A DNA stretch of 11,032 nt, taken from NCBI GenBank assembly GCA_030622125.1, contig JAUXGM010000076.1:1-11032 (forward strand), in the 5' to 3' direction. Each line of letters starts with the position of its first letter. Positions within the stretch are counted from its first letter, which is position 1. Position numbers and translations under genes: made by a program. This document shows, one piece after another, positions 18-10,945 of the stretch. The notes under the pieces were generated by a model, which saw only the letters and a list, made by a program, of their open reading frames with translations, was not told the DNA's origin and made no database searches. This DNA is from a bacterium (GTDB lineage: Bacteria; AUK180).

Positions 18-173
18 ATGAAGAAAAAATGGTCAAAGCCTGAAATTATGATGATAAATATCAATGCAAAACCACCACCACCGTGTAATCCGGCTAAACC
101 CCAAACTGAAAGATGCGATGCAACAAATCCTCAATATCTTGCACCCTGTAAAGGCGGTATTCCGTTATCTTAG
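18..173 (+). CDS. Putative RiPP precursor peptide, 51 aa, C-terminal Ser
   Basis: A 51-residue peptide of the ribosomally synthesised, modified type. It starts MKKKWSKPEI: the W-x-x-P-E-I pattern at residues 5-10 resembles the Y/W-x-x-P-x-L/I leader motif bound by PqqD-like recognition domains in lasso and related RiPPs. Residues 17-22 are AKPPPP, followed by Cys23, Cys33 and Cys44 spaced 10 and 11 residues apart, and the chain ends GGIPLS with a C-terminal serine. There is no hydrophobic signal peptide. A strong Shine-Dalgarno precedes the ATG, and TAGTAG gives two stops in a row. On the opposite strand, facing it, are an HPr-kinase-like gene and a nucleotidyltransferase, both known accessory types in lasso clusters. 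The assignment rests on the leader motif, size and neighbours. No cyclase, radical SAM, PqqD or transporter gene is visible, so the chemistry is unknown. It could instead be an unrelated small Cys/Pro peptide. Confidence 0.7.
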   Translation: MKKKWSKPEIMMININAKPPPPCNPAKPQTERCDATNPQYLAPCKGGIPLS

Positions 174-1073
174 TAGTTCCCTTCCAATAAATCTTTTGAA
201 ATATTTTTTGTTCCTTTTTAATTCTTTCTCAATAAAAAACCAGAAATAAAACCTTTCAAAAATTCCCGGCCTCTTGCAAGCTTTGATAAAACGGTTAAAG
301 GGATAGGGAAAATTTCTCACATTATAAAAGTCTTCCTTCAATTTTAACAATTTTTTATAATCATTAAAAAGTCCAATTTCTTTTAATTCATTTAAGACCG
401 TTTTTTTATCCATTTCCATATCATCAATATAGCACCACTCGGTAAAATGATAGAGCCTATCGGTAAAGTAATGAAAGACGGAATGGATCGTTGATACAAA
501 GAACTTATTATATATCATTTTTTTATTGAATTTTAATGGGATCTCAAACGGCTGCCAGTGGGGTTCAAAATTGATTTGAAAATTTTTATAATCTCCCCAT
601 ACCGTAATATGTGAACGAAATCTTATGCAATGTTCAATCTCGGATCTATCGGGAAGATGAAAATCCAATTCCCTCAGATAATCCAATATCTCATAGATAT
701 TATATCCATCAATAAAGATATCGATATCGGACATAAATCTTATACCGTAATTCTCGCGGTAAATATTTTGCAATAGATAAATTCCCTTTAATGGGATAAT
801 ATCGGGGAATCTTTTTTTCAGGTTCAGATAAAAATCATAAAAGATGGTATTTCGTACCATATTTTTATTATAAAATCTCATTAAAAATTTCATAAACCCA
901 TCCGAAAATGGATTTTTATTGTAATCTATAAGATTCTTATAGGCAATACCTCCTGTTTTATGAAAATTGAAAAGTTTTCTCATTCTATTTTCATCAAAAT
1001 TTTTCCTCAATCTTGAAAGATCGGGCTTCATTGAAGATAAAATAAGAAAATTCAGCTCAGAATCCGTCCACAA
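165..1073 (-). CDS. Nucleotidyltransferase family protein (NTP_transf_5-like)
   Basis: A 302-residue protein with the signature of the uncharacterised nucleotidyltransferase family (PF14907 type). It shows P-L-K-G at residues 94-97, then G-I-R-F-M-S-D-I-D at 110-118 with the paired aspartates D116 and D118 expected to bind metal. A later N-F-E-P-H-W segment (E170) sits where the family often has D-x-H-W. In RiPP clusters such proteins accompany HPr-kinase-like enzymes and modify the peptide, probably after phosphorylation. It overlaps the kinase gene by 17 bp, so the two are co-translated. The start used is TTG at 1073: an in-frame stop lies just upstream, and the segment S-E-L-N-F-L-I-L before Met15 fits the family N-terminus. 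ATG at 1031 is the alternative. Its last three codons and stop overlap the end of the precursor gene on the other strand. Substrate and donor nucleotide are unknown. Confidence 0.75.
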   Translation of the reverse strand: MWTDSELNFLILSSMKPDLSRLRKNFDENRMRKLFNFHKTGGIAYKNLIDYNKNPFSDGFMKFLMRFYNKNMVRNTIFYDFYLNLKKRFPDIIPLKGIYLLQNIYRENYGIRFMSDIDIFIDGYNIYEILDYLRELDFHLPDRSEIEHCIRFRSHITVWGDYKNFQINFEPHWQPFEIPLKFNKKMIYNKFFVSTIHSVFHYFTDRLYHFTEWCYIDDMEMDKKTVLNELKEIGLFNDYKKLLKLKEDFYNVRNFPYPFNRFIKACKRPGIFERFYFWFFIEKELKRNKKYFKRFIGRELLR

Positions 1074-1860
1074 AATCTTTTAATTCCCCTATCTTTTTCC
1101 ATACGAAAACATCTGATTTTTTTTCATAAAGATCCCACAAATAAAATCCTCTTTTAAAGTAATCCTTACTATAAAAACCAAAATTATGTATTGAATTTAA
1201 AAATGCCTCTGTCCTTAGCCTTTTTCTTTTGCATAAGAAAAATATCTCTACATTATTATCCAATACCTCCATTTTTTTTATAGAATCTATCTTAAAAACC
1301 TTTTCTCCGATAATATTTGAATAAAATGATGCCTCTTTTTTATCCCATCTTGAATTTACAAAAAGCGGTCTTGGAATAAAGGAAACCTCATTTTCATTCA
1401 TTAAAACATATTCATCGGTATAAACCCTTGCTCCCTTTTTATGGAAAAGATAGGCGATTGATGTTTTTCCGCTTTTACTTTCACCGACAAATATGTATTT
1501 TTTCCCCTTATATTCAACCAATGCAGCATGAATATTTATAAATCTTTTACTTAGGGAATAGGATATGTTGTATCTTATCCAGGTTGTCAAGGTAAGCTCA
1601 TAATCAATATTGCTCTTATCCTTTAAGTAAAAGTAATTATTCTTATGGTTCTGAAAAAGATAGAGATCTTTGTATGAAAAAAATCTGCCTGTAAAATTTG
1701 TCGGCATTGCTTCAATAAAATTCATAGAACTTTCAAAGGGAAAGAGCGAATCCGATACAAAGTTTTTTTCTATGATTCCTCCCAAATTATCACATTTAAA
1801 ATTAAAACTCTTTCCTAAAAAATTAAACTTTTTAATTTTTAAATGCCTTATCCCATTCAA
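1057..1860 (-). CDS. HPr kinase-like P-loop kinase, probable peptide-tailoring enzyme
   Basis: A 267-residue protein whose middle matches the HPr kinase/phosphorylase C-terminal fold. It has I-H-A-A-L-V at residues 110-115 with His111, a Walker A loop GESKSGKT at 126-133, and Y-T-D-E at 147-150 where HprK-type kinases carry S-D-D. It lacks the long N-terminal domain of true HprK and has no HPr gene nearby. It resembles instead the stand-alone kinases of RiPP clusters that phosphorylate a C-terminal serine, as known for paeninodin. The small peptide encoded opposite does end in serine. The likely start is TTG at 1860, overlapping the upstream CreD-like gene by 29 bp. No Shine-Dalgarno is seen, so translation is probably coupled, and the exact start is uncertain by a few codons. 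Its 3' end overlaps the nucleotidyltransferase gene by 17 bp. Confidence 0.78.
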   Translation of the reverse strand: MNGIRHLKIKKFNFLGKSFNFKCDNLGGIIEKNFVSDSLFPFESSMNFIEAMPTNFTGRFFSYKDLYLFQNHKNNYFYLKDKSNIDYELTLTTWIRYNISYSLSKRFINIHAALVEYKGKKYIFVGESKSGKTSIAYLFHKKGARVYTDEYVLMNENEVSFIPRPLFVNSRWDKKEASFYSNIIGEKVFKIDSIKKMEVLDNNVEIFFLCKRKRLRTEAFLNSIHNFGFYSKDYFKRGFYLWDLYEKKSDVFVWKKIGELKDFVDGF

Positions 1861-3037
1861 TTTTTGCAGTTTTCTGCATGATCAAAAAGAGCGTTAATAT
1901 AGACATAATTGTAACCATCAATCCGGTATACCCTTTAAAAAAATGAACGAAAGTAAATACAATAAGGTAAACAAATTGAGCAATACCTGCTTCAAAAAAT
2001 GCAAATTTGGTTCCTACAACGATCCTTAAATAACTTACTACAAGAAAGATCGAAACAACAGATGATATTATAAAACCAAGAAATAACGGTATATGATCAA
2101 CAAGATATGCCATCAAAAGATGAAAGGAAAAGAAAGATGCGGCAAGAAATATGTAGTGCATCGGATGGAATTTCATATTTTTTAATATTGAAAGGATGAA
2201 TATCATTAAAAAGAAAAAGAATAAAGAAATAGGTGCAAAATATGTAACCTTCGCAACCCATGGTCCCGGATTGAGTTTTTCCGGAACAGCTATTCCTATA
2301 TTAAATCCCGTAAGCAAGCTTGTAAATTTCCATGTCAATGTAGCACTATCTTCACTCTCTTTTTTCATTGTTGGTGATAGGCTGGTTTCCGGAAAATCAT
2401 ATCTTAAAAAATTTGTTTTCAAGATCAGAGAGAAATTTTTTACCCTGCCGACATTGCCATTATTTGATATGTTGTAAATCCAATTATTTGCACCTCTTGA
2501 CACATATTCAATTGAGAAATCAATTTCTTCGTTTGGTTTTAATATGAGTTCTTTTGAAATATCTTTTGAAAATACATTTATTTCTACCTCTTTTCCATTT
2601 ACAATGAAATGAAAATTATCATAGACCGCTCTTGTTTGTGGAAATGAAAATACTATCTTTCCCGATTTTCCCTGACTGCCTTTATATATAAAGGAATAGT
2701 CTGCCTTAAAATGTACACCGTAGAGATTATACCAGAGTAATCCTTTTTTTCTCGGGGTATATTTTATATCAACATTGATATCATTCTTTTCAAGCGGAAT
2801 ATTTATCCATTGAGTTTCATAATATTTTTTACCCTTACTGTTTGTTCTTAGAACTTTCTTATGCCAGTAAACATTAGGTTGCAATTGAATCTGATTCGTA
2901 CCCCATAAATTGTAAACCTTTTTTCTCAATTCACCGTAACTCATGTTTGATCTTGAACCGGTAATTCCACCGAGTACTAACCATGCTATCCAAGAGATAA
3001 CAAAAATAATAACAATGGGAAAAATTTTCTTAAACAT
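1832..3037 (-). CDS. CreD-like inner membrane protein
   Basis: A 401-residue membrane protein with the CreD (Cet) layout. There is an N-terminal membrane segment (about 5-24), a long soluble part predicted to lie outside the cytoplasm (25-264), then about five membrane segments (265-390). CreD-like marks are L-R-K-K-V-x-N-L-W-G-x-N-Q at 37-49, F-H-P-M-H-Y at 290-295, L-V-D-H-I at 312-316, and a basic tail K-I-E-W after the last helix, where CreD has R-R-V-D-W. CreD affects envelope stress and beta-lactam or colicin tolerance in enterobacteria, but its biochemical role is unknown. The start at 3037 is chosen over ATG 3058 because AGGAGGT precedes it and the upstream ATG lies inside the promoter -10 box. 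It is the first gene of the operon with the kinase and nucleotidyltransferase genes. The match is distant, so no symbol is given. Confidence 0.72.
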   Translation of the reverse strand: MFKKIFPIVIIFVISWIAWLVLGGITGSRSNMSYGELRKKVYNLWGTNQIQLQPNVYWHKKVLRTNSKGKKYYETQWINIPLEKNDINVDIKYTPRKKGLLWYNLYGVHFKADYSFIYKGSQGKSGKIVFSFPQTRAVYDNFHFIVNGKEVEINVFSKDISKELILKPNEEIDFSIEYVSRGANNWIYNISNNGNVGRVKNFSLILKTNFLRYDFPETSLSPTMKKESEDSATLTWKFTSLLTGFNIGIAVPEKLNPGPWVAKVTYFAPISLFFFFLMIFILSILKNMKFHPMHYIFLAASFFSFHLLMAYLVDHIPLFLGFIISSVVSIFLVVSYLRIVVGTKFAFFEAGIAQFVYLIVFTFVHFFKGYTGLMVTIMSILTLFLIMQKTAKIEWDKAFKN

Positions 3038-3040
3038 AAA

Positions 3041-3047
3041 ACCTCCT
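3041..3047 (-). promoter_or_regulatory. Shine-Dalgarno deciding the CreD-like start
   Basis: On the minus strand AGGAGGT is followed by TTT and the ATG at 3037. The perfect anti-16S match selects this ATG rather than the in-frame ATG at 3058. Confidence 0.8.
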
Positions 3048-3056
3048 GTTAATGAC

Positions 3057-3085
3057 ATTATATCTTTTTTTTATACTTTTTTCAA
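3057..3085 (-). promoter_or_regulatory. Sigma-70-type promoter of the CreD-like/kinase/nucleotidyltransferase operon
   Basis: On the minus strand TTGAAA (3085-3080), a 17-bp spacer and TATAAT (3062-3057) form a near-consensus promoter. Transcription would start near 3050, giving a leader of only about 13 bases that holds the Shine-Dalgarno. The -35 box overlaps the stop codon of the CPBP remnant. Confidence 0.75.
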
Positions 3086-4625: not shown

Positions 4626-5333
4626 ATGTCGGTAATAACAATAATCTTACTTGTTCTGCTTGTTATTTCACTTGCTGGAATTATTTTTCTTTTGATTTTA
4701 CGAAAAGGAAATGGGATATGCGAGATCCATCCGGTAATAGAAAGGGTAAAAGAGATCGGGGAGCTTTCATTTTACCGATTATATTCAAAGGAGATAATAA
4801 TTGAATCAAGGGATATTTTGAAGGGTAATAGATTTGCTTTTCTGAAAAAATTCTTTATTTCCAAAAGAATGATAATTCTTATGATAGAATTTACGGCGGA
4901 TTTTAAGATCAATTTAAGGGATCCGAATTTTTTGATCATTGCCGATTATGAAGCAAGTGAGGTAACATTTTCGCTTCCGCCGATCCAATATTCTATGAAT
5001 GTAAAAGATATTAAATTTGTAGATGAGAAAGAAGCAAAGATACTCCCATTTATGTTGCCGGAAATTCTTTCATCTCAAGTAAAGAAATCGGTGGAAGAAC
5101 GAAATGAACTTATTGAAATGGGAAAGGAAAAGATTGAAAAAATTATAGCGGAATTCTTAACAATTCATAAAACCGAGATAGAGGAGGTCTTGAAAAAGAC
5201 ATTAAAGACACTTTCTCAAGGTTTTAATTATTATAACATCAAGATAATTTCATCCGAAGCGAATCCGATATTAACACAATTTGACACATCAAGAATCGCA
5301 TCGGGACACATCAAAAATCAGTCCCGATATTAA
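4626..5333 (+). CDS. DUF4230-like membrane-anchored protein
   Basis: A 235-residue protein with one N-terminal membrane segment (about 4-25) followed by a soluble domain. The order of elements resembles DUF4230: an R-V-K-E-I-G-E-L strand near 40-47, a run E-F-T-A-D-F-K-I-N-L at 88-97 like the family's internal 'G-x-D-L' strand, and F-S-L-P-P-I at 115-120 where the family has I-x-L-P-P/x. A charged helix (152-195), possibly a coiled coil, follows. DUF4230 proteins have no established function. AGGAGAG ends five bases before the ATG. The gene is last in the nitrilase operon, and its last 23 bases overlap, tail to tail, the 3' end of the peptidase/barrel gene, including a hairpin. The family call is by pattern only. 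Confidence 0.65.
   Translation: MSVITIILLVLLVISLAGIIFLLILRKGNGICEIHPVIERVKEIGELSFYRLYSKEIIIESRDILKGNRFAFLKKFFISKRMIILMIEFTADFKINLRDPNFLIIADYEASEVTFSLPPIQYSMNVKDIKFVDEKEAKILPFMLPEILSSQVKKSVEERNELIEMGKEKIEKIIAEFLTIHKTEIEEVLKKTLKTLSQGFNYYNIKIISSEANPILTQFDTSRIASGHIKNQSRY
5300..5328. terminator. Possible shared hairpin between convergent genes
   Basis: ATCGGGAC (5300-5307) and GTCCCGAT (5321-5328) form a perfect 8-bp stem with a 13-base loop. The hairpin lies inside the overlapping 3' ends of two convergent genes. There is no strong U-tract on either side, so it may be a weak bidirectional terminator or RNA-end protector. Its GGGAC/GTCCC stem also recalls the repeats at the right end of the window. 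Confidence 0.4.
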
Positions 5334-8067
5334 ATTGGAAAATTGTTTTTGGATAGACCTTATAAAAATTCCATTTTTTTGCAAAATCAAACATAAGATC
5401 AAAATATCCCCATCTAAACCTTATTCCAAAACCAACCGAGCCCTTTAAATCATCAAAACATAAGTTATTATCTACTTTTTTGAAAGCATGAAAATTATCA
5501 TCATTCCAGGCATCACCAACATCCATAAACAATAAGCCCCTTATGTAGTAAAGATCAAAAAGTCCTGCAAATCTTATTATATCAATAAATGGAATTCTCA
5601 TCTCAAGGCTTGAAAATGCTGCATTACTTCCATAAATGCTCATTGGAGAATATCCTCTTACCGAACCGATCCCACCAAGATAGATATAATCCTTGTCCCT
5701 TCCGAATGAAGAATACCCCAAAAGATGCCAGGCAAGTGTTCCTCTGAATGTAAGTTTCCAATACCTTCTATAATCAACCATTGCATTGTAAACATCATAG
5801 TAGGTATCGGTTAAGGGGTAACCTCTTGTAAGAGAAAGGATATATCTACTTCCATGGTTATAGGTAAAAAAGCCGGGCTTTGTGGTATCACTTACAAAAT
5901 TTAGTGTTGTGGAAAATACCCTTTTTTCCGAAGGAAATCCCATATTTCGAAAAAGACTTCCCCAATAAAGTTTTGCAAATTGGACCTCTAATTCAAACCG
6001 CCTATATTTACTTGTCGGATACAAAAATAACAAAGCCCCGCCGAAGTTGCCTTGTGAACTTGTTTTTCCTTCGTCCCAAAAATAGTAATCTTTTCTTTGA
6101 TTGTAAAATGCAAGACCGTAATTTAAACGATGAGTTTGATCGAAGGCATAAATATAAAAATTATTAAATTGTCTTATGGCATCAATATTTAGGGCAACTC
6201 TTACATTACCGAATATGTCCGAAAGTGTAATGTTAGAATAATTCTCAAGGACACCGTTTTCATAAGTAAGATATGATGAAACATTTGTAGCTCGTAGTTT
6301 TAATTTATATTTTTTAATATTTTTCAGGAATTTAATATTTGCATAATCTCTTTTTTCTATTGTAGTCGGCACCTTATTTTCTATTTCTTCCTTATATATC
6401 TTGAAATCTTTAACTTCTTTTATATAAGTTTTATATGAAGAATTATAGTACGAAGTAAAGGCGATCTCTTTTCCGTCAGGTGAAAATTTTGCCATAAAAT
6501 TTCCGCCAAGAGTTGAAGTTATTCGGCTGGTTGCTTTTTTCTCAATATCGTATATGTAAAGATTTGGGATATTTTGAAATCTATCGGATGTAAAGAGGAT
6601 CTTTTTTCCATCCGAAGAAAGAGAGATCTCTACATCATTACCGATCCTGTAAGTAAGTTGAACTTCTTCATTGGTATTTAAAGACAAAGAAAATATCTTA
6701 TCAAATCTATTTACTCTTTTCGTATAGTAAACAATATTTTTACTTCTATCGTAATTTACATAATTTATAAATGCTTTTTGAAATGTGATCTGTTGCGGTT
6801 TATCTTTGAAATCATATAAAAATATATTTCTGCCTCCACTTACTTCTCCGGTAAAAAATAAATCATTACCATTTTTCCAGCAAGGATGTCTCGGCTTTAA
6901 AATATCATTGAATCGGTATTTTTTGTATTTCCCATCAAAAATATTAAAAACGAGCAAGACATCCGATTTCCCATCCCTTGCAAATATTGCAAGTTTTCTT
7001 CCATCGGGTGAAATATCCATAGAATTCTCTTCTACAATCAGATACTCATATCGTTTGGGTGATAATGGGGTCAATCGTTTTATGATTTTATTCCCTTTAT
7101 TGTTATAAAAATAAATATCGAGGGTATTATTTTTGTTCGTAATTCCTGCTAATATCTCACCTGACGGAAAATACACAGGCTGAAGCCAGAGATCTCTTCC
7201 AAGTTTTTCACTTAAAATTGGTCTACCGTAATCTATGTTCGGTTCTTCTGAATCTTTGATCTTCGGCCAATACTTCTTTTTTAGGTAGTTATACCACCGA
7301 TCATTGATCTCCTTATAGGATTGATCGACCGTTTTTTTAAAGACCTGATTTAAATTGTATTGAGCCGGCCTTTTTAGATATCTTATCATCTTTCTTAATT
7401 TTTCAACACCATAGACATCCACAAACCAATCAATGAAACTTTGACTTTCTTTATAACATTGGTAAACATTCGGGGTATAATAAAAATTTTCCATTTCTGA
7501 AAGGGTGAAAAAATGACCATTCATTATGGTATCTCTCAAAACCATGATACCTTTCATATCCCAATGCTGACTTAAATGTTCTGCGGTTCCTTCCATAAAC
7601 CACATTGGCGGTTGTCGTGAAACAATTGACGATTTAAATATGTGATATTGAAATATATGCGTAAGTTCATGCCAGAGAAGCGGCTTTAACTCCTCATAAG
7701 GAGCATCTATGGGAACGACCAATCTATTCATAAGAACATCGGCAAAACCTCCGACTTGCGGTGGTAAAAAACCTGATAAAATATTTGTCTGCTCGAAATC
7801 TCGGTGGGTTCTATAGAGTATCACAGTCGTCTTATCCTTAAAATTAAAATGGAGGTAGCTTGAATGGTGATTATAGGCAGATTCCAATATTTCCACAATA
7901 CTCAAAAGCTGTTCATCATCCGTCTCATAATAATAGATATTAAAGTGCTCCGATTCCTTCATATACCATTTAAAAGTTTTGTAATGAACCTTATTTTTTC
8001 CAAAACCATATACAAAAAGCGGAATAACTAAAAAAAATAAGAGAAAAAAATATTTTTTACCTTGCAA
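5311..8067 (-). CDS. Secreted zinc peptidase + TolB-type propeller + Omp85-like barrel
   Basis: A 918-residue exported protein with three parts. Residues 1-22 form a signal peptide. Residues about 30-270 look like a peptidase MA-type metalloprotease, with zinc motif H-E-L-T-H at 133-137 and M-W-F-M-E-G-T-A-E at 155-163 supplying the third ligand. Residues about 280-550 hold PD40/TolB-type propeller repeats: D-I-S-P-D-G-R-K-L-A (351-360), S-L-S-S-D-G-K-K-I-L (482-491) and K-F-S-P-D-G-K-E-I-A (527-536). Residues about 590-918 are an outer-membrane barrel with the Omp85/BamA signature G-S-V-R-G-Y (801-806), M-D-V-G-D-A-W (848-854) and a terminal Phe. The likely place is the outer membrane with the peptidase and propeller attached; which side they face is unknown. 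The start is TTG at 8067, backed by GGAGGT at ideal distance and an in-frame stop just before it. It overlaps the upstream lipoprotein gene by 11 bp and is last in the glyA operon. Confidence 0.85.
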   Translation of the reverse strand: MQGKKYFFLLFFLVIPLFVYGFGKNKVHYKTFKWYMKESEHFNIYYYETDDEQLLSIVEILESAYNHHSSYLHFNFKDKTTVILYRTHRDFEQTNILSGFLPPQVGGFADVLMNRLVVPIDAPYEELKPLLWHELTHIFQYHIFKSSIVSRQPPMWFMEGTAEHLSQHWDMKGIMVLRDTIMNGHFFTLSEMENFYYTPNVYQCYKESQSFIDWFVDVYGVEKLRKMIRYLKRPAQYNLNQVFKKTVDQSYKEINDRWYNYLKKKYWPKIKDSEEPNIDYGRPILSEKLGRDLWLQPVYFPSGEILAGITNKNNTLDIYFYNNKGNKIIKRLTPLSPKRYEYLIVEENSMDISPDGRKLAIFARDGKSDVLLVFNIFDGKYKKYRFNDILKPRHPCWKNGNDLFFTGEVSGGRNIFLYDFKDKPQQITFQKAFINYVNYDRSKNIVYYTKRVNRFDKIFSLSLNTNEEVQLTYRIGNDVEISLSSDGKKILFTSDRFQNIPNLYIYDIEKKATSRITSTLGGNFMAKFSPDGKEIAFTSYYNSSYKTYIKEVKDFKIYKEEIENKVPTTIEKRDYANIKFLKNIKKYKLKLRATNVSSYLTYENGVLENYSNITLSDIFGNVRVALNIDAIRQFNNFYIYAFDQTHRLNYGLAFYNQRKDYYFWDEGKTSSQGNFGGALLFLYPTSKYRRFELEVQFAKLYWGSLFRNMGFPSEKRVFSTTLNFVSDTTKPGFFTYNHGSRYILSLTRGYPLTDTYYDVYNAMVDYRRYWKLTFRGTLAWHLLGYSSFGRDKDYIYLGGIGSVRGYSPMSIYGSNAAFSSLEMRIPFIDIIRFAGLFDLYYIRGLLFMDVGDAWNDDNFHAFKKVDNNLCFDDLKGSVGFGIRFRWGYFDLMFDFAKKWNFYKVYPKTIFQFNIGTDF

Positions 8068-8743
8068 TTAGATACCTCCGTACAATTTTCTTTTTTGGCA
8101 AATATTTTTTAAATAGATCTTTCAAATATGTTTCATAATTTTCATAAATGTATTCATCGTCAGCCGGATGATTTTTGACAAATTCATTAGAAGTAGAGAA
8201 CTTTTTATCAATAAGCAATTTCTTGATCTTAGTATCGTATAGAAAAAAATGGATCGTAAAATTGTAAACCACTTTTTTTTCGTAAACCTGTCTATAATAA
8301 TAAGAGTGGTATTGAGGATCCCAAACATTTTTATAAACAAATCCCTCAATATTGTCTGTGGTAAAATAGATATAAGAAAAAAGATACTTCCAATTTTTGT
8401 TATCATTTGTAAATTTAATGTTCTCAAAAATTATCTCTTTCTTTTTTTTATCCTTGAATTCAATCTTATAGTTAAATGTTTCATTTACGGTATATTTTAT
8501 AGGTATCTCATCAAATGTATCCTTTGTAATCCCTATTATATCGCCCTTGATCATAGTGGAAAAGTTTTCGTCATCTATATTGGTATTCAGATACACGGGA
8601 ATGATCGTAATTTCCCCCAATTGTTTTGTATCAACCTGTGGTTGAATTGATCTTTCAAAATCATATACGGCATAATGTAAGCAGGATGTAGTAAAAATAA
8701 TCGATAGTAAGAAAATAAATAAAAATTTAATCCGTGCCTTCAT
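8057..8743 (-). CDS. Lipoprotein of unknown function, 228 aa
   Basis: A basic N-terminus (M-K-A-R-I-K), a hydrophobic stretch and F-T-T-S-C with Cys21 give a type II signal peptide, so the product is probably a lipoprotein. I do not recognise the mature domain. After residue 40 it has L-G-E-I-T-I-I-P-V, a strand typical of small envelope lipoproteins. The middle is rich in Tyr, Phe and Lys, and the end K-K-Y-L-P-K-K-K-I-V-R-R-Y-L is strongly basic. It sits between a TPR lipoprotein and the peptidase/barrel protein with overlaps of 17 and 11 bp, so its translation is tied to both. It is plausibly a periplasmic or outer-membrane partner of the barrel protein, but that is inference from position only. 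Confidence 0.75.
   Translation of the reverse strand: MKARIKFLFIFLLSIIFTTSCLHYAVYDFERSIQPQVDTKQLGEITIIPVYLNTNIDDENFSTMIKGDIIGITKDTFDEIPIKYTVNETFNYKIEFKDKKKKEIIFENIKFTNDNKNWKYLFSYIYFTTDNIEGFVYKNVWDPQYHSYYYRQVYEKKVVYNFTIHFFLYDTKIKKLLIDKKFSTSNEFVKNHPADDEYIYENYETYLKDLFKKYLPKKKIVRRYLIAR
8074..8079 (-). promoter_or_regulatory. Shine-Dalgarno supporting a TTG start
   Basis: GGAGGT on the minus strand lies six bases before TTG at 8067, directly before the signal-peptide sequence. It fixes a non-ATG start for the barrel protein. Confidence 0.75.
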
Positions 8744-9059
8744 TTATTTTTTTAGATAACCTTTCATAATTTTTTTCAACACCTTTATTTTTTTTGACAA
8801 TAGAAAGGGCGGTTTCGTATTCCAATAACGCCTCATCATATTTACCTTGTTTTTCGAGACATACACCAAGATTATTATGTGCGATCCAATCTCGATCATT
8901 TTCTTTAATAAGCTGCTGCCATCTAAATTCCGCTTCTTTATCAAATGATAATCGCATCATTTTTATTGCATAATTATTTTCCTGTTTAATAATATTTGTT
9001 TTGCAAGAAGTAAAGACCAGTACAAGAACAGTAAGGAAGATAAATATTTTAATTTTCAT
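8727..9059 (-). CDS. Small TPR-repeat lipoprotein, 110 aa
   Basis: The start is taken at ATG 9059, giving M-K-I-K-I-F-I-F-L followed by V-F-T-S-C with Cys19 as the lipidation site. The longer in-frame frame to 9116 would bury this signal peptide and lies inside acpS, so it is rejected. Residues about 57-90 form one clear tetratricopeptide unit (W-I-A-H-N-N-L-G-V-C-L-E-K-Q-G-K-Y-D-E-A-L-L-E-Y), with a weaker helical unit before it (A-E-F-R-W-Q-Q-L-I). TPRs bind other proteins, so this is probably a periplasm-facing adaptor. It overlaps acpS by 11 bp and the next lipoprotein gene by 17 bp. No Shine-Dalgarno is visible, so translation is probably coupled. Confidence 0.82.
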   Translation of the reverse strand: MKIKIFIFLTVLVLVFTSCKTNIIKQENNYAIKMMRLSFDKEAEFRWQQLIKENDRDWIAHNNLGVCLEKQGKYDEALLEYETALSIVKKNKGVEKNYERLSKKINEGTD

Positions 9060-9417
9060 TGTAAACAACACAAAAAGCGGTGGCATATTCGCTTTCATGA
9101 GATATGGATATCTCAAGTTTATAATTCTCCAATTTATTCTTCAAGTCGCTCCTTTCAAAAGAAATATAAGGACCTCTTTTCTTATCGGTAATTATGGATA
9201 TTTCACTAAAATCAAATTTTATATTGAGTGGGGAGAGTGCTTTAAAGATCGCTTCTTTTGCAGCAAATCTACCGGCTATTACAGGGAACGGATCGCTGTG
9301 TTTGTCAATATAATTTATCTCATTATCAGTAAATAATCTACCTAATTTTTTTCTATCTGAAAAGACTTTTTTAATTCTTTCTACCGACACTATGTCCGTT
9401 CCTATCTTAATTTTCAT
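9049..9417 (-). CDS. acpS: Holo-[acyl-carrier-protein] synthase
   Basis: A 122-residue enzyme that moves 4'-phosphopantetheine from coenzyme A to the conserved serine of acyl carrier protein, activating it for fatty acid synthesis in the cytoplasm. The family signatures are intact: [10 protein letters not shown] at residues 6-15 with the metal ligand Asp8, and [11 protein letters not shown] at 50-60 with Glu55. A C-terminal [11 protein letters not shown] strand follows, also typical of AcpS. The length is normal for AcpS. The start ATG shares four bases with the glyA stop (ATGA), indicating translational coupling. Confidence 0.95.
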
Positions 9418-10670
9418 AAATGATTTTTATACAGTGGAAATTTTTTGCAAAATTCCTTAACTTCTTTTTTCACCTGTGCTCTGTTCTCTTCGTTTTTCCT
9501 GTCCTCAAGAACCCTATTTATAAAGTCAGCGATTATCTTCATTTCATTGGTTCCCATTCTTCTTGTAGTAACAGCGGGTGTTCCGAGTCTGATACCGCTT
9601 GCTATGAACGGACTTCTTTCATCAAACGGAATCGTGTTCTTATTTACCGTAATACCGGATTTTTCTAATGCATTTTCCGCTCTTTTTCCATTTAATCCTT
9701 TTATATTTTTTGAGTCGAGATCACAAAGCATAAGATGTGTATCGGTGCCGCCTGCAACAAGGCGAAATCCTTTTTCTTCAAGTGCCTTTGCAAGCGCCTG
9801 AGCATTTTCAAGTATCTTTTTTTGATATTCTTTGAATTCCGGTTTTAATGCTTCTTTAAAAGCAACCGCCTTTGCGGCAATAACATGCATTAACGGTCCG
9901 CCCTGGACACCGGGGAATACGATCTTATCCAATTTTTCCGCATACTCTTCTTTACACATTACCATTCCACCTCGGGGACCTCTTAATGTTTTATGAGTTG
10001 TCGTTGTAACGATATCCGCATAAGGTATAGGTGACGGATGGAGTTCCGTCGCAACAAGTCCTGCAATATGAGCAATATCAACAACAAGATAGGCATTTAC
10101 TTCATCGCATATCTCTCTGAACTTTTTAAAATCCAATGTTCGTGGATAAGCAGAAGCACCGGCAATTATAAGTTTAGGTTTTGCTTCAAATGCTTCTTTC
10201 AACAGTTGATCATAATCAATTACTTCTGTCTCCCTGGAAACACCGTAATGAACAATATTGAAATACTTACCGGAAAAACTTAGAGGATGACCATGGGAAA
10301 GGTGACCGCCATGAGAAAGATCAAGTCCCATTATTGTATCTCCAGGTTCCACTAATGTAAAATATGCTGCCATATTTGCTTGTGAACCGGAATGCGGCTG
10401 AACATTCACATGATCACATCCGAACAATTGCTTTGCTCTATCTCTCGCAAGGTCTTCCGCAACATCGACGAATTCACAACCGCCATAGTATCTTTTTGCC
10501 GGATACCCTTCTGCATACTTATTTGTCATAACAGAGCCGGCAGCTTGTAATACCGCCTCAGAAACGAAATTCTCAGAAGCAATGAGTTCAAGATTGTATG
10601 CTTGCCTTTTTGTTTCGTTATAGATTGCATCATAAATTTCAGGATCTTCTCTTTTTAGTTCTTCATTCAT
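9414..10670 (-). CDS. glyA: Serine hydroxymethyltransferase
   Basis: A 418-residue PLP enzyme that interconverts serine plus tetrahydrofolate with glycine plus 5,10-methylene-tetrahydrofolate, the main one-carbon source. Family motifs are complete: L-I-A-S-E-N-F near residue 29-35, [14 protein letters not shown] at 52-65, [10 protein letters not shown] at 196-205, and [13 protein letters not shown] with the PLP lysine Lys227. The end of the family domain ([10 protein letters not shown]) is also present. The start is ATG 10670: GGGAG lies six bases before it, and a promoter sits just upstream. The frame is open to 10943, but that extension crosses the promoter and repeats and is not coding. 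glyA is the first gene of a five-gene operon. Confidence 0.97.
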
Positions 10671-10676
10671 AGACAT

Positions 10677-10681
10677 CTCCC
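10677..10681 (-). promoter_or_regulatory. Shine-Dalgarno of glyA
   Basis: GGGAG on the minus strand is followed directly by an in-frame ATG (10676), which is too close to use, and then by the ATG at 10670 at the right six-base distance. It decides the start. Confidence 0.65.
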
Positions 10682-10695
10682 AAATAATATTATTT

Positions 10696-10724
10696 ATTAT
10701 AACATTATTTATTTTTTTTTGCAA
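10696..10724 (-). promoter_or_regulatory. Sigma-70-type promoter of the glyA operon
   Basis: On the minus strand TTGCAA (10724-10719), a 17-bp spacer and TATAAT (10701-10696) give a near-consensus promoter. It would yield a leader of about 20 bases before the glyA ATG, too short for a riboswitch. It is the only strong promoter seen for the five-gene operon. Confidence 0.75.
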
Positions 10725-10789
10725 ATAATAAAATGCCAATTGATAAGACAATAAGTAAAACAATATTAATCTCCGTTTCAAACAAAAGA

Positions 10790-10835
10790 GGGACATTACC
10801 TCAACAAACTGATTTTTTTTGTTGAGGTGTGTCCC
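10790..10835. repeat. Hairpin element 1 (GGGAC...GTCCC)
   Basis: The left arm (10790-10808) and right arm (10818-10835) pair over an 11-bp stretch ACCTCAACAAA/TTTGTTGAGGT, plus an outer GGGAC/GTCCC clamp interrupted by a small mismatch (ATT against GT). The loop is T-rich. It resembles REP or MITE-type palindromes spread between genes. Confidence 0.7.
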
Positions 10836-10850
10836 GGACTCTTCCTTAGA
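10821..10850. repeat. 30-bp direct repeat, copy 1
   Basis: It begins GTTGAGGTGTGTCCC, the right arm of hairpin element 1, and ends TTCCTTAGA. It matches the copy at 11003-11032 at 28 of 30 positions. Confidence 0.75.
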
Positions 10851-10945
10851 TAACGATAAACCTCCCGAGAACAATATAGCCAAGGTAATAAGAAAATAAG
10901 TTAATAAGGGAATAAGTGAAAAAATATTAAATTCAGAAAACAAGC

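Follow-up and report, generated by a model that had tools for sequence, protein, structure and literature searches.

How does one protein come to carry a zinc peptidase, a β-propeller, and an Omp85-like barrel, and what might such a chain do in the cell envelope? The question is raised by an 11,032-nucleotide stretch of DNA (the whole of which we call the window) from contig JAUXGM010000076.1 of assembly GCA_030622125.1, a bacterium of the lineage AUK180. A preliminary description, made from the nucleotide sequence alone, placed all three parts in a single chain and suggested a self-anchored surface or periplasmic protease or a protein-processing porin.

Part of this architecture has a name. 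The WD40-Omp85 type was named in 2014 by Heinz and Lithgow for proteins that combine a propeller with an Omp85 barrel, and their main text likens it to a BamA-BamB fusion (PMC4104836). As described there, it shares with the protein studied here a TolB-like propeller N-terminal to an Omp85 barrel and the absence of a POTRA domain; the main text mentions neither a peptidase domain nor lipoprotein neighbors (PMC4104836). The patatin domain of PlpD, once regarded as exported, proved to remain periplasmic, and the 2024 paper on that protein called metalloprotease and WD40 Omp85 types intriguing targets (PMC11116518). In the literature outside subscription journals, only these two papers bear on the triple fusion, and neither they nor any other paper found there describes experiments on it.

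A further label in this literature could be mistaken for the same protein. We take the Pfam family PF00149 to be the metallophosphoesterase family. Because PF00149 is the basis on which the main text of Heinz and Lithgow defines the “Metallo” or “Omp85-metalloprotease” group (PMC4104836), that group is not the triple fusion; the protease label for it was repeated in a later paper (PMC11116518).

Results

The limits of the open reading frame are exactly those of the preliminary description, to which we add that the gene lies on the minus strand (Table 1). Its start codon recurs in three of three relatives checked, and the genome holds one copy. Pfam families matched along the chain are PD40 (9e-13), Omp85 (1.4e-10 over residues 655-918, with a PF01103 score above the family cut-off), and Peptidase_MA_2 (8e-7). 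The last scores 29.5 bits, against a curated Pfam cut-off of 32.4, and was matched by 45 of 47 homologues at E ≤ 0.01 (best, 3.8e-20). No POTRA domain was matched in Pfam; the peptidase and the propeller fill that region.

Table 1. Annotated features of the window, by position
Feature	Positions	Strand	Residues and basis
NTP_transf_5 nucleotidyltransferase overlapping a P-loop protein	165..1860	minus	weak HPr-kinase-like match (P-loop protein)
CreD-family inner-membrane protein	1832..3058	minus	PF06123
Peptidase-propeller-Omp85 fusion	5311..8067	minus	918 aa; TTG start
16-strand Omp85 barrel	5314..6294	minus	residues 592-918; strands in model, BamA match
SVRGY, loop 6 motif	5650..5664	minus	residues 802-806, between strands 11 and 12; position from strand order
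TolB-type β-propeller	6382..7200	minus	about residues 290-562; PD40, TolB structural match
Gluzincin-type peptidase domain	7213..8004	minus	about residues 22-285; Peptidase_MA_2, PDB profile matches
E159, third zinc ligand (EG motif)	7591..7593	minus	
HELTH zinc-binding motif	7657..7671	minus	residues 133-137
FGKNK motif	7990..8004	minus	residues 22-26; presumed mature N-terminus
Predicted signal peptide	8005..8067	minus	residues 1-21; hydrophobic N-terminus, low pLDDT in model
Lipoprotein of HpaA/PelC/CsgG/LptE/TolB-N fold	8057..8743	minus	228 aa; overlaps fusion start
Small TPR lipoprotein	8727..9068 (ORF open to 9116)	minus	TPR match; lipobox Cys
acpS, holo-ACP synthase	9049..9417	minus	PF01648; synteny; same overlapping gene string in phylum
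glyA, serine hydroxymethyltransferase	9414..10943	minus	sequence; gene order conserved in phylum

The full-chain structure prediction that the preliminary description had proposed was run with AlphaFold2 on 77 homologues, giving a model with pLDDT of 88.1 and pTM of 0.86. Sixteen long strands span residues 592 to 914, and VIA-align matched residues 592-918 to BamA (8xnb) with a Z of 26.6 (3.5 Å over 305 residues) and the barrel to TamA with a Z of 26. The modeled barrel thus has the BamA/TamA fold, from which we judge it to be closed, and by that fold the C-terminal part belongs, on the model, to the Omp85/TpsB superfamily. The VRGY motif lies in the loop between strands 11 and 12, a placement shared with BamA. 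The propeller (about residues 277-556) has TolB as its nearest structural relative in VIA-align (2w8b_B, Z of 25.8, 2.5 Å over 246 residues), so the chain combines the TolB-nearest N-terminal propeller and the Omp85 barrel by which the WD40-Omp85 type is recognized. When the profile of the peptidase part was compared with solved structures in the PDB, active gluzincins were matched, namely M9 collagenases at 9e-5 and, at 0.01, an M1-type aminopeptidase, and the modeled helices carry HExxH and E159 in gluzincin fashion. The fusion thereby shares, with a profile match, the HExxH motif and downstream Glu ligand of gluzincins such as Peptidase_MA_2, M9 collagenase, and M1; unlike in those enzymes, its peptidase would be tied to the outer membrane through the propeller and barrel.

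Homologous loci were found with two motifs of the N-terminal domain that lie away from the zinc site, so that zinc and barrel residues were not directly selected for and members lacking the N-terminal domain would be missed. In the 77 homologues compared, no substitution occurs at the zinc ligands (H133, H137, and E159), at the catalytic E134, or at E822, R824, and D849 of the barrel region; 75 retain the VRGY arginine, R804, and 68 end in F. The family therefore carries the gluzincin-clan signature (HExxH plus a downstream Glu ligand) in all 77 sequences, together with the Omp85/TpsB signature of a loop 6 VRGF/Y motif and a C-terminal aromatic residue. The preliminary description had named two observations that would refute it, a predicted structure with no closed barrel and a peptidase domain without the third zinc ligand across homologues. 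Both came out the other way: the barrel is closed as judged from its fold match, and the third ligand, E159, is kept throughout; the co-conservation of zinc site and barrel signature that it proposed to examine is likewise seen in these counts. A dead peptidase was rejected, as none of the 77 sequences lacked a zinc ligand. The FGKNK motif where the mature chain presumably begins is nearly invariant across phyla, with G23 and N25 in all 77 sequences and K26 in 73; this segment could be a docking or plug element. In a survey of 60 genomes, open frames with long propeller-barrel matches were also matched in the peptidase half, and the few short barrel-only matches in other frames resemble ordinary Omp85 proteins.

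Relatives of the fusion number at least 552 in one genome collection. The best 80 of these span more than a dozen phyla, including Poribacteria, Acidobacteriota, Aminicenantes, WOR-3, Zixibacteria, KSB1, Calditrichota, Ignavibacteriota, Bacteroidota, Eisenbacteria, Latescibacterota, and Neomarinimicrobiota. Most loci are from metagenome-assembled genomes; cultured carriers include the Acidobacteriota Acanthopleuribacter pedis and Sulfidibacter corallicola. Similar architectures in some candidate phyla, mentioned in the preliminary description, are indeed present, but the range is wider and takes in cultured Acidobacteriota, Bacteroidota, and Ignavibacteriota. Homologues of 900 to 1,200 amino acids in open frame, with the same domain order in many phyla, rule out a chance or assembly-artifact fusion. 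The triple-domain fusion is real, and the zinc peptidase, PD40 propeller, and Omp85 barrel first read from one chain are borne out by Pfam, the AlphaFold2 model, and conservation.

The fusion is found in all seven genomes examined from its own phylum, each of which has exactly one other Omp85-family protein. That protein is full length and of BamA size (865-874 amino acids) in six and a fragment in the seventh, a genome that is 80% complete. Some other phyla have several copies of the fusion per genome. An M48 peptidase is encoded about 10 kb from the BamA-type gene of the window's genome (contig C15, 14601-15263 and 25318-26529) and four relatives also have one, at up to about 11 kb from that gene; it is possibly of the BepA or HtpX type.

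Identity with known single systems was considered and rejected in four cases. BamA is excluded by a TIGR03303 score of 43 bits against a cut-off of 297 and by the missing POTRA match, and TolB by a TIGR02800 score of 68 bits against 343, with a peptidase instead of a TolB N-domain at residues 22-285. The fusion has no patatin or POTRA match in Pfam that would place it in the PlpD type, and no M48 match that would make it a BepA relative; the M48 protein of this genome is a separate one.

Upstream of the fusion, two families of the phylum share the gene order glyA, acpS, TPR lipoprotein, second lipoprotein, and then the fusion itself, in a string whose adjacent genes overlap. For glyA, the true start probably lies downstream of the listed TTG. 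Two relatives have an LptF/LptG gene downstream of the fusion. The two lipoprotein genes are directly upstream in six own-phylum genomes and in all testable Poribacteria (22), Acidobacteriota (3), and Aminicenantes (3), and a profile search found them there in 0 of 37 other loci. Fusions with this cassette form one clade (support of 100) in a tree built with FastTree only; for one Poribacterial row labeled as lacking the cassette, the TPR gene was found about 1 kb upstream. The TPR lipoprotein occurs once per genome in 39 of 39 Poribacterial genomes, and conservation of the lipobox Cys and the TPR motif extends over four phyla; PilW/Tgl-type model matches are under cut-offs where shown, and the TPR resemblance is at the level of fold.

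No Pfam family matched the second lipoprotein above cut-off. Its model (pLDDT of 85.7) has structural matches to HpaA (Z of 12.1), PelC (9.7), CsgG (9.0), LptE (8.7), and the TolB N-domain (8.0). Comparison of the window and Poribacterial proteins with hhalign was weak, the alignments being small; we regard the two as homologous because of profile-search matches (E of 1e-5 to 1e-11) and their shared position. Both LptE and PelC are lipoproteins that partner an outer-membrane barrel, and a fold in common with them does not show a common role. The association with two lipoproteins that had been suggested gains support at the gene level from the conserved cassette; an operon partnership falls short of proof of a complex.

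A different lipoprotein accompanies the fusion in the sister group, where 18 loci have a PQQ-propeller, BamB-like lipoprotein gene directly downstream, mostly overlapping the fusion or within a few bases of it. All of the 16 that were scanned match BamB models, which lead by member number; the score in the member shown is under the equivalog cut-off, and the BamB resemblance is one of fold. A PEGA-domain gene follows in 10 of the 18. In 22 Poribacteria, the gene directly after the fusion encodes a UPF0182 membrane protein (at 8973-12134 in locus L040, for example). At the other end of the window, the overlapping NTP_transf_5 and P-loop genes recall peptide-modification clusters. No consistent cargo gene adjoins the fusion across phyla.

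Discussion

An Omp85 barrel, a propeller, a TPR lipoprotein, and a zinc metalloprotease are also the working parts of BAM with BamB, BamD, and BepA, and BepA degrades stalled proteins on BAM. Since the fusion and its neighbors are made of the same kinds of parts, a second, protease-bearing complex is the simplest account. With moderate confidence, we propose an outer-membrane-anchored periplasmic protease, with BAM-like accessory lipoproteins, that acts in outer-membrane protein handling or quality control. The POTRA-less barrel would anchor the protein in the outer membrane, with the TolB-type propeller and zinc peptidase probably on the periplasmic side, in the position of the POTRA domains of BamA. 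Together with its lipoproteins (the TPR and LptE/PelC/TolB-N-fold proteins here, the BamB-like propeller protein in the sister group), the fusion may form an additional, BAM-like complex alongside the true BamA. Substrates, presumably exported proteins or those of the outer membrane, would be presented by the propeller and lipoproteins and then trimmed by the peptidase, or cleared if they stall, much as BepA acts on BAM.

The proposed complex differs from BAM in four ways: the fusion lacks POTRA domains, its barrel shares one chain with propeller and peptidase, the peptidase belongs to a family other than M48, and a separate BamA-sized Omp85 protein is present. POTRA domains bind substrate in BamA, and their absence counts against a protein-handling role. 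So does the M48 peptidase near bamA, which could do the job of BepA. We also raise, tentatively, a wider picture of a self-contained outer-membrane machine for protein handling. It would unite propeller, protease, and insertase-type barrel in one chain, work beside BAM in many phyla with lineage-specific lipoproteins, and cut substrates that enter or cross the barrel.

The alternative that survives best, although we think it unlikely, is a dedicated export pore, in which specific substrates would cross the barrel and be cut in transit by the peptidase, in the manner of TpsB-type secretion with a built-in processing enzyme. The fusion shares its VRGY loop with translocating Omp85 proteins, and PelC, CsgG, and LptE, fold relatives of the second lipoprotein, are partners of export pores. 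Against such a pore stand the lack of a consistent cargo gene and the conservation of one copy throughout whole phyla, which is more suggestive of housekeeping than of service to one cargo; several copies do occur in some other phyla.

Display of the protease at the surface, one of the two locations first suggested, fares worse. The barrel would have to move its own peptidase and propeller outward, as was first proposed for PlpD, a patatin-Omp85 protein (type Vd) whose enzyme domain is N-terminal to the barrel as in the fusion; PlpD differs in having a patatin lipase and one POTRA domain where the fusion has peptidase and propeller. Self-anchoring in one chain would suit display, yet about 570 folded residues would need passage through the barrel, and the partner lipoproteins presumably lie on the periplasmic face. 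In Omp85 proteins, whatever precedes the barrel in the chain is periplasmic. This placement and the precedent of PlpD, whose enzyme domain stays in the periplasm (PMC11116518), make the periplasmic half of the original suggestion the better bet and the surface half very unlikely.

We hold equally little belief in an envelope tether or cell wall factor with a Tol-Pal-like job, whose peptidase would act on peptidoglycan or envelope peptides. TolB has a six-bladed PD40 propeller like that of the fusion and an N-domain whose fold resembles the partner lipoprotein, and no TolB above the family cut-off was found in the phylum. Unlike in TolB, the propeller of the fusion shares its chain with a peptidase and a barrel. 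The TolB-N-like part stands apart as a lipoprotein of its own, which HpaA, PelC, CsgG, and LptE match better than the TolB N-domain does, a Z of 8 being weak; moreover, the barrel keeps a full Omp85 signature that a tether would not need. Finally, an Omp85 insertase whose peptidase domain binds substrate and no longer cuts would suit the BAM-like setting and the barrel but is highly improbable, given zinc ligands and a catalytic Glu kept in every homologue across more than a dozen phyla, in a sample drawn through N-terminal-domain motifs.

The outer-membrane-anchored periplasmic protease remains our preferred reading. The propeller-Omp85 part was already named in 2014 (PMC4104836); the gene context of the fusion is new here. 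Omp85 proteins in which enzyme or propeller domains replace POTRA domains have been named and are uncharacterized. In this family the active site is intact and strictly conserved, the phyletic spread is broad and reaches cultured species, and the lipoprotein partners are conserved as well. Together these features make its function directly testable, and the family bears on outer-membrane protein quality control outside the Proteobacteria.
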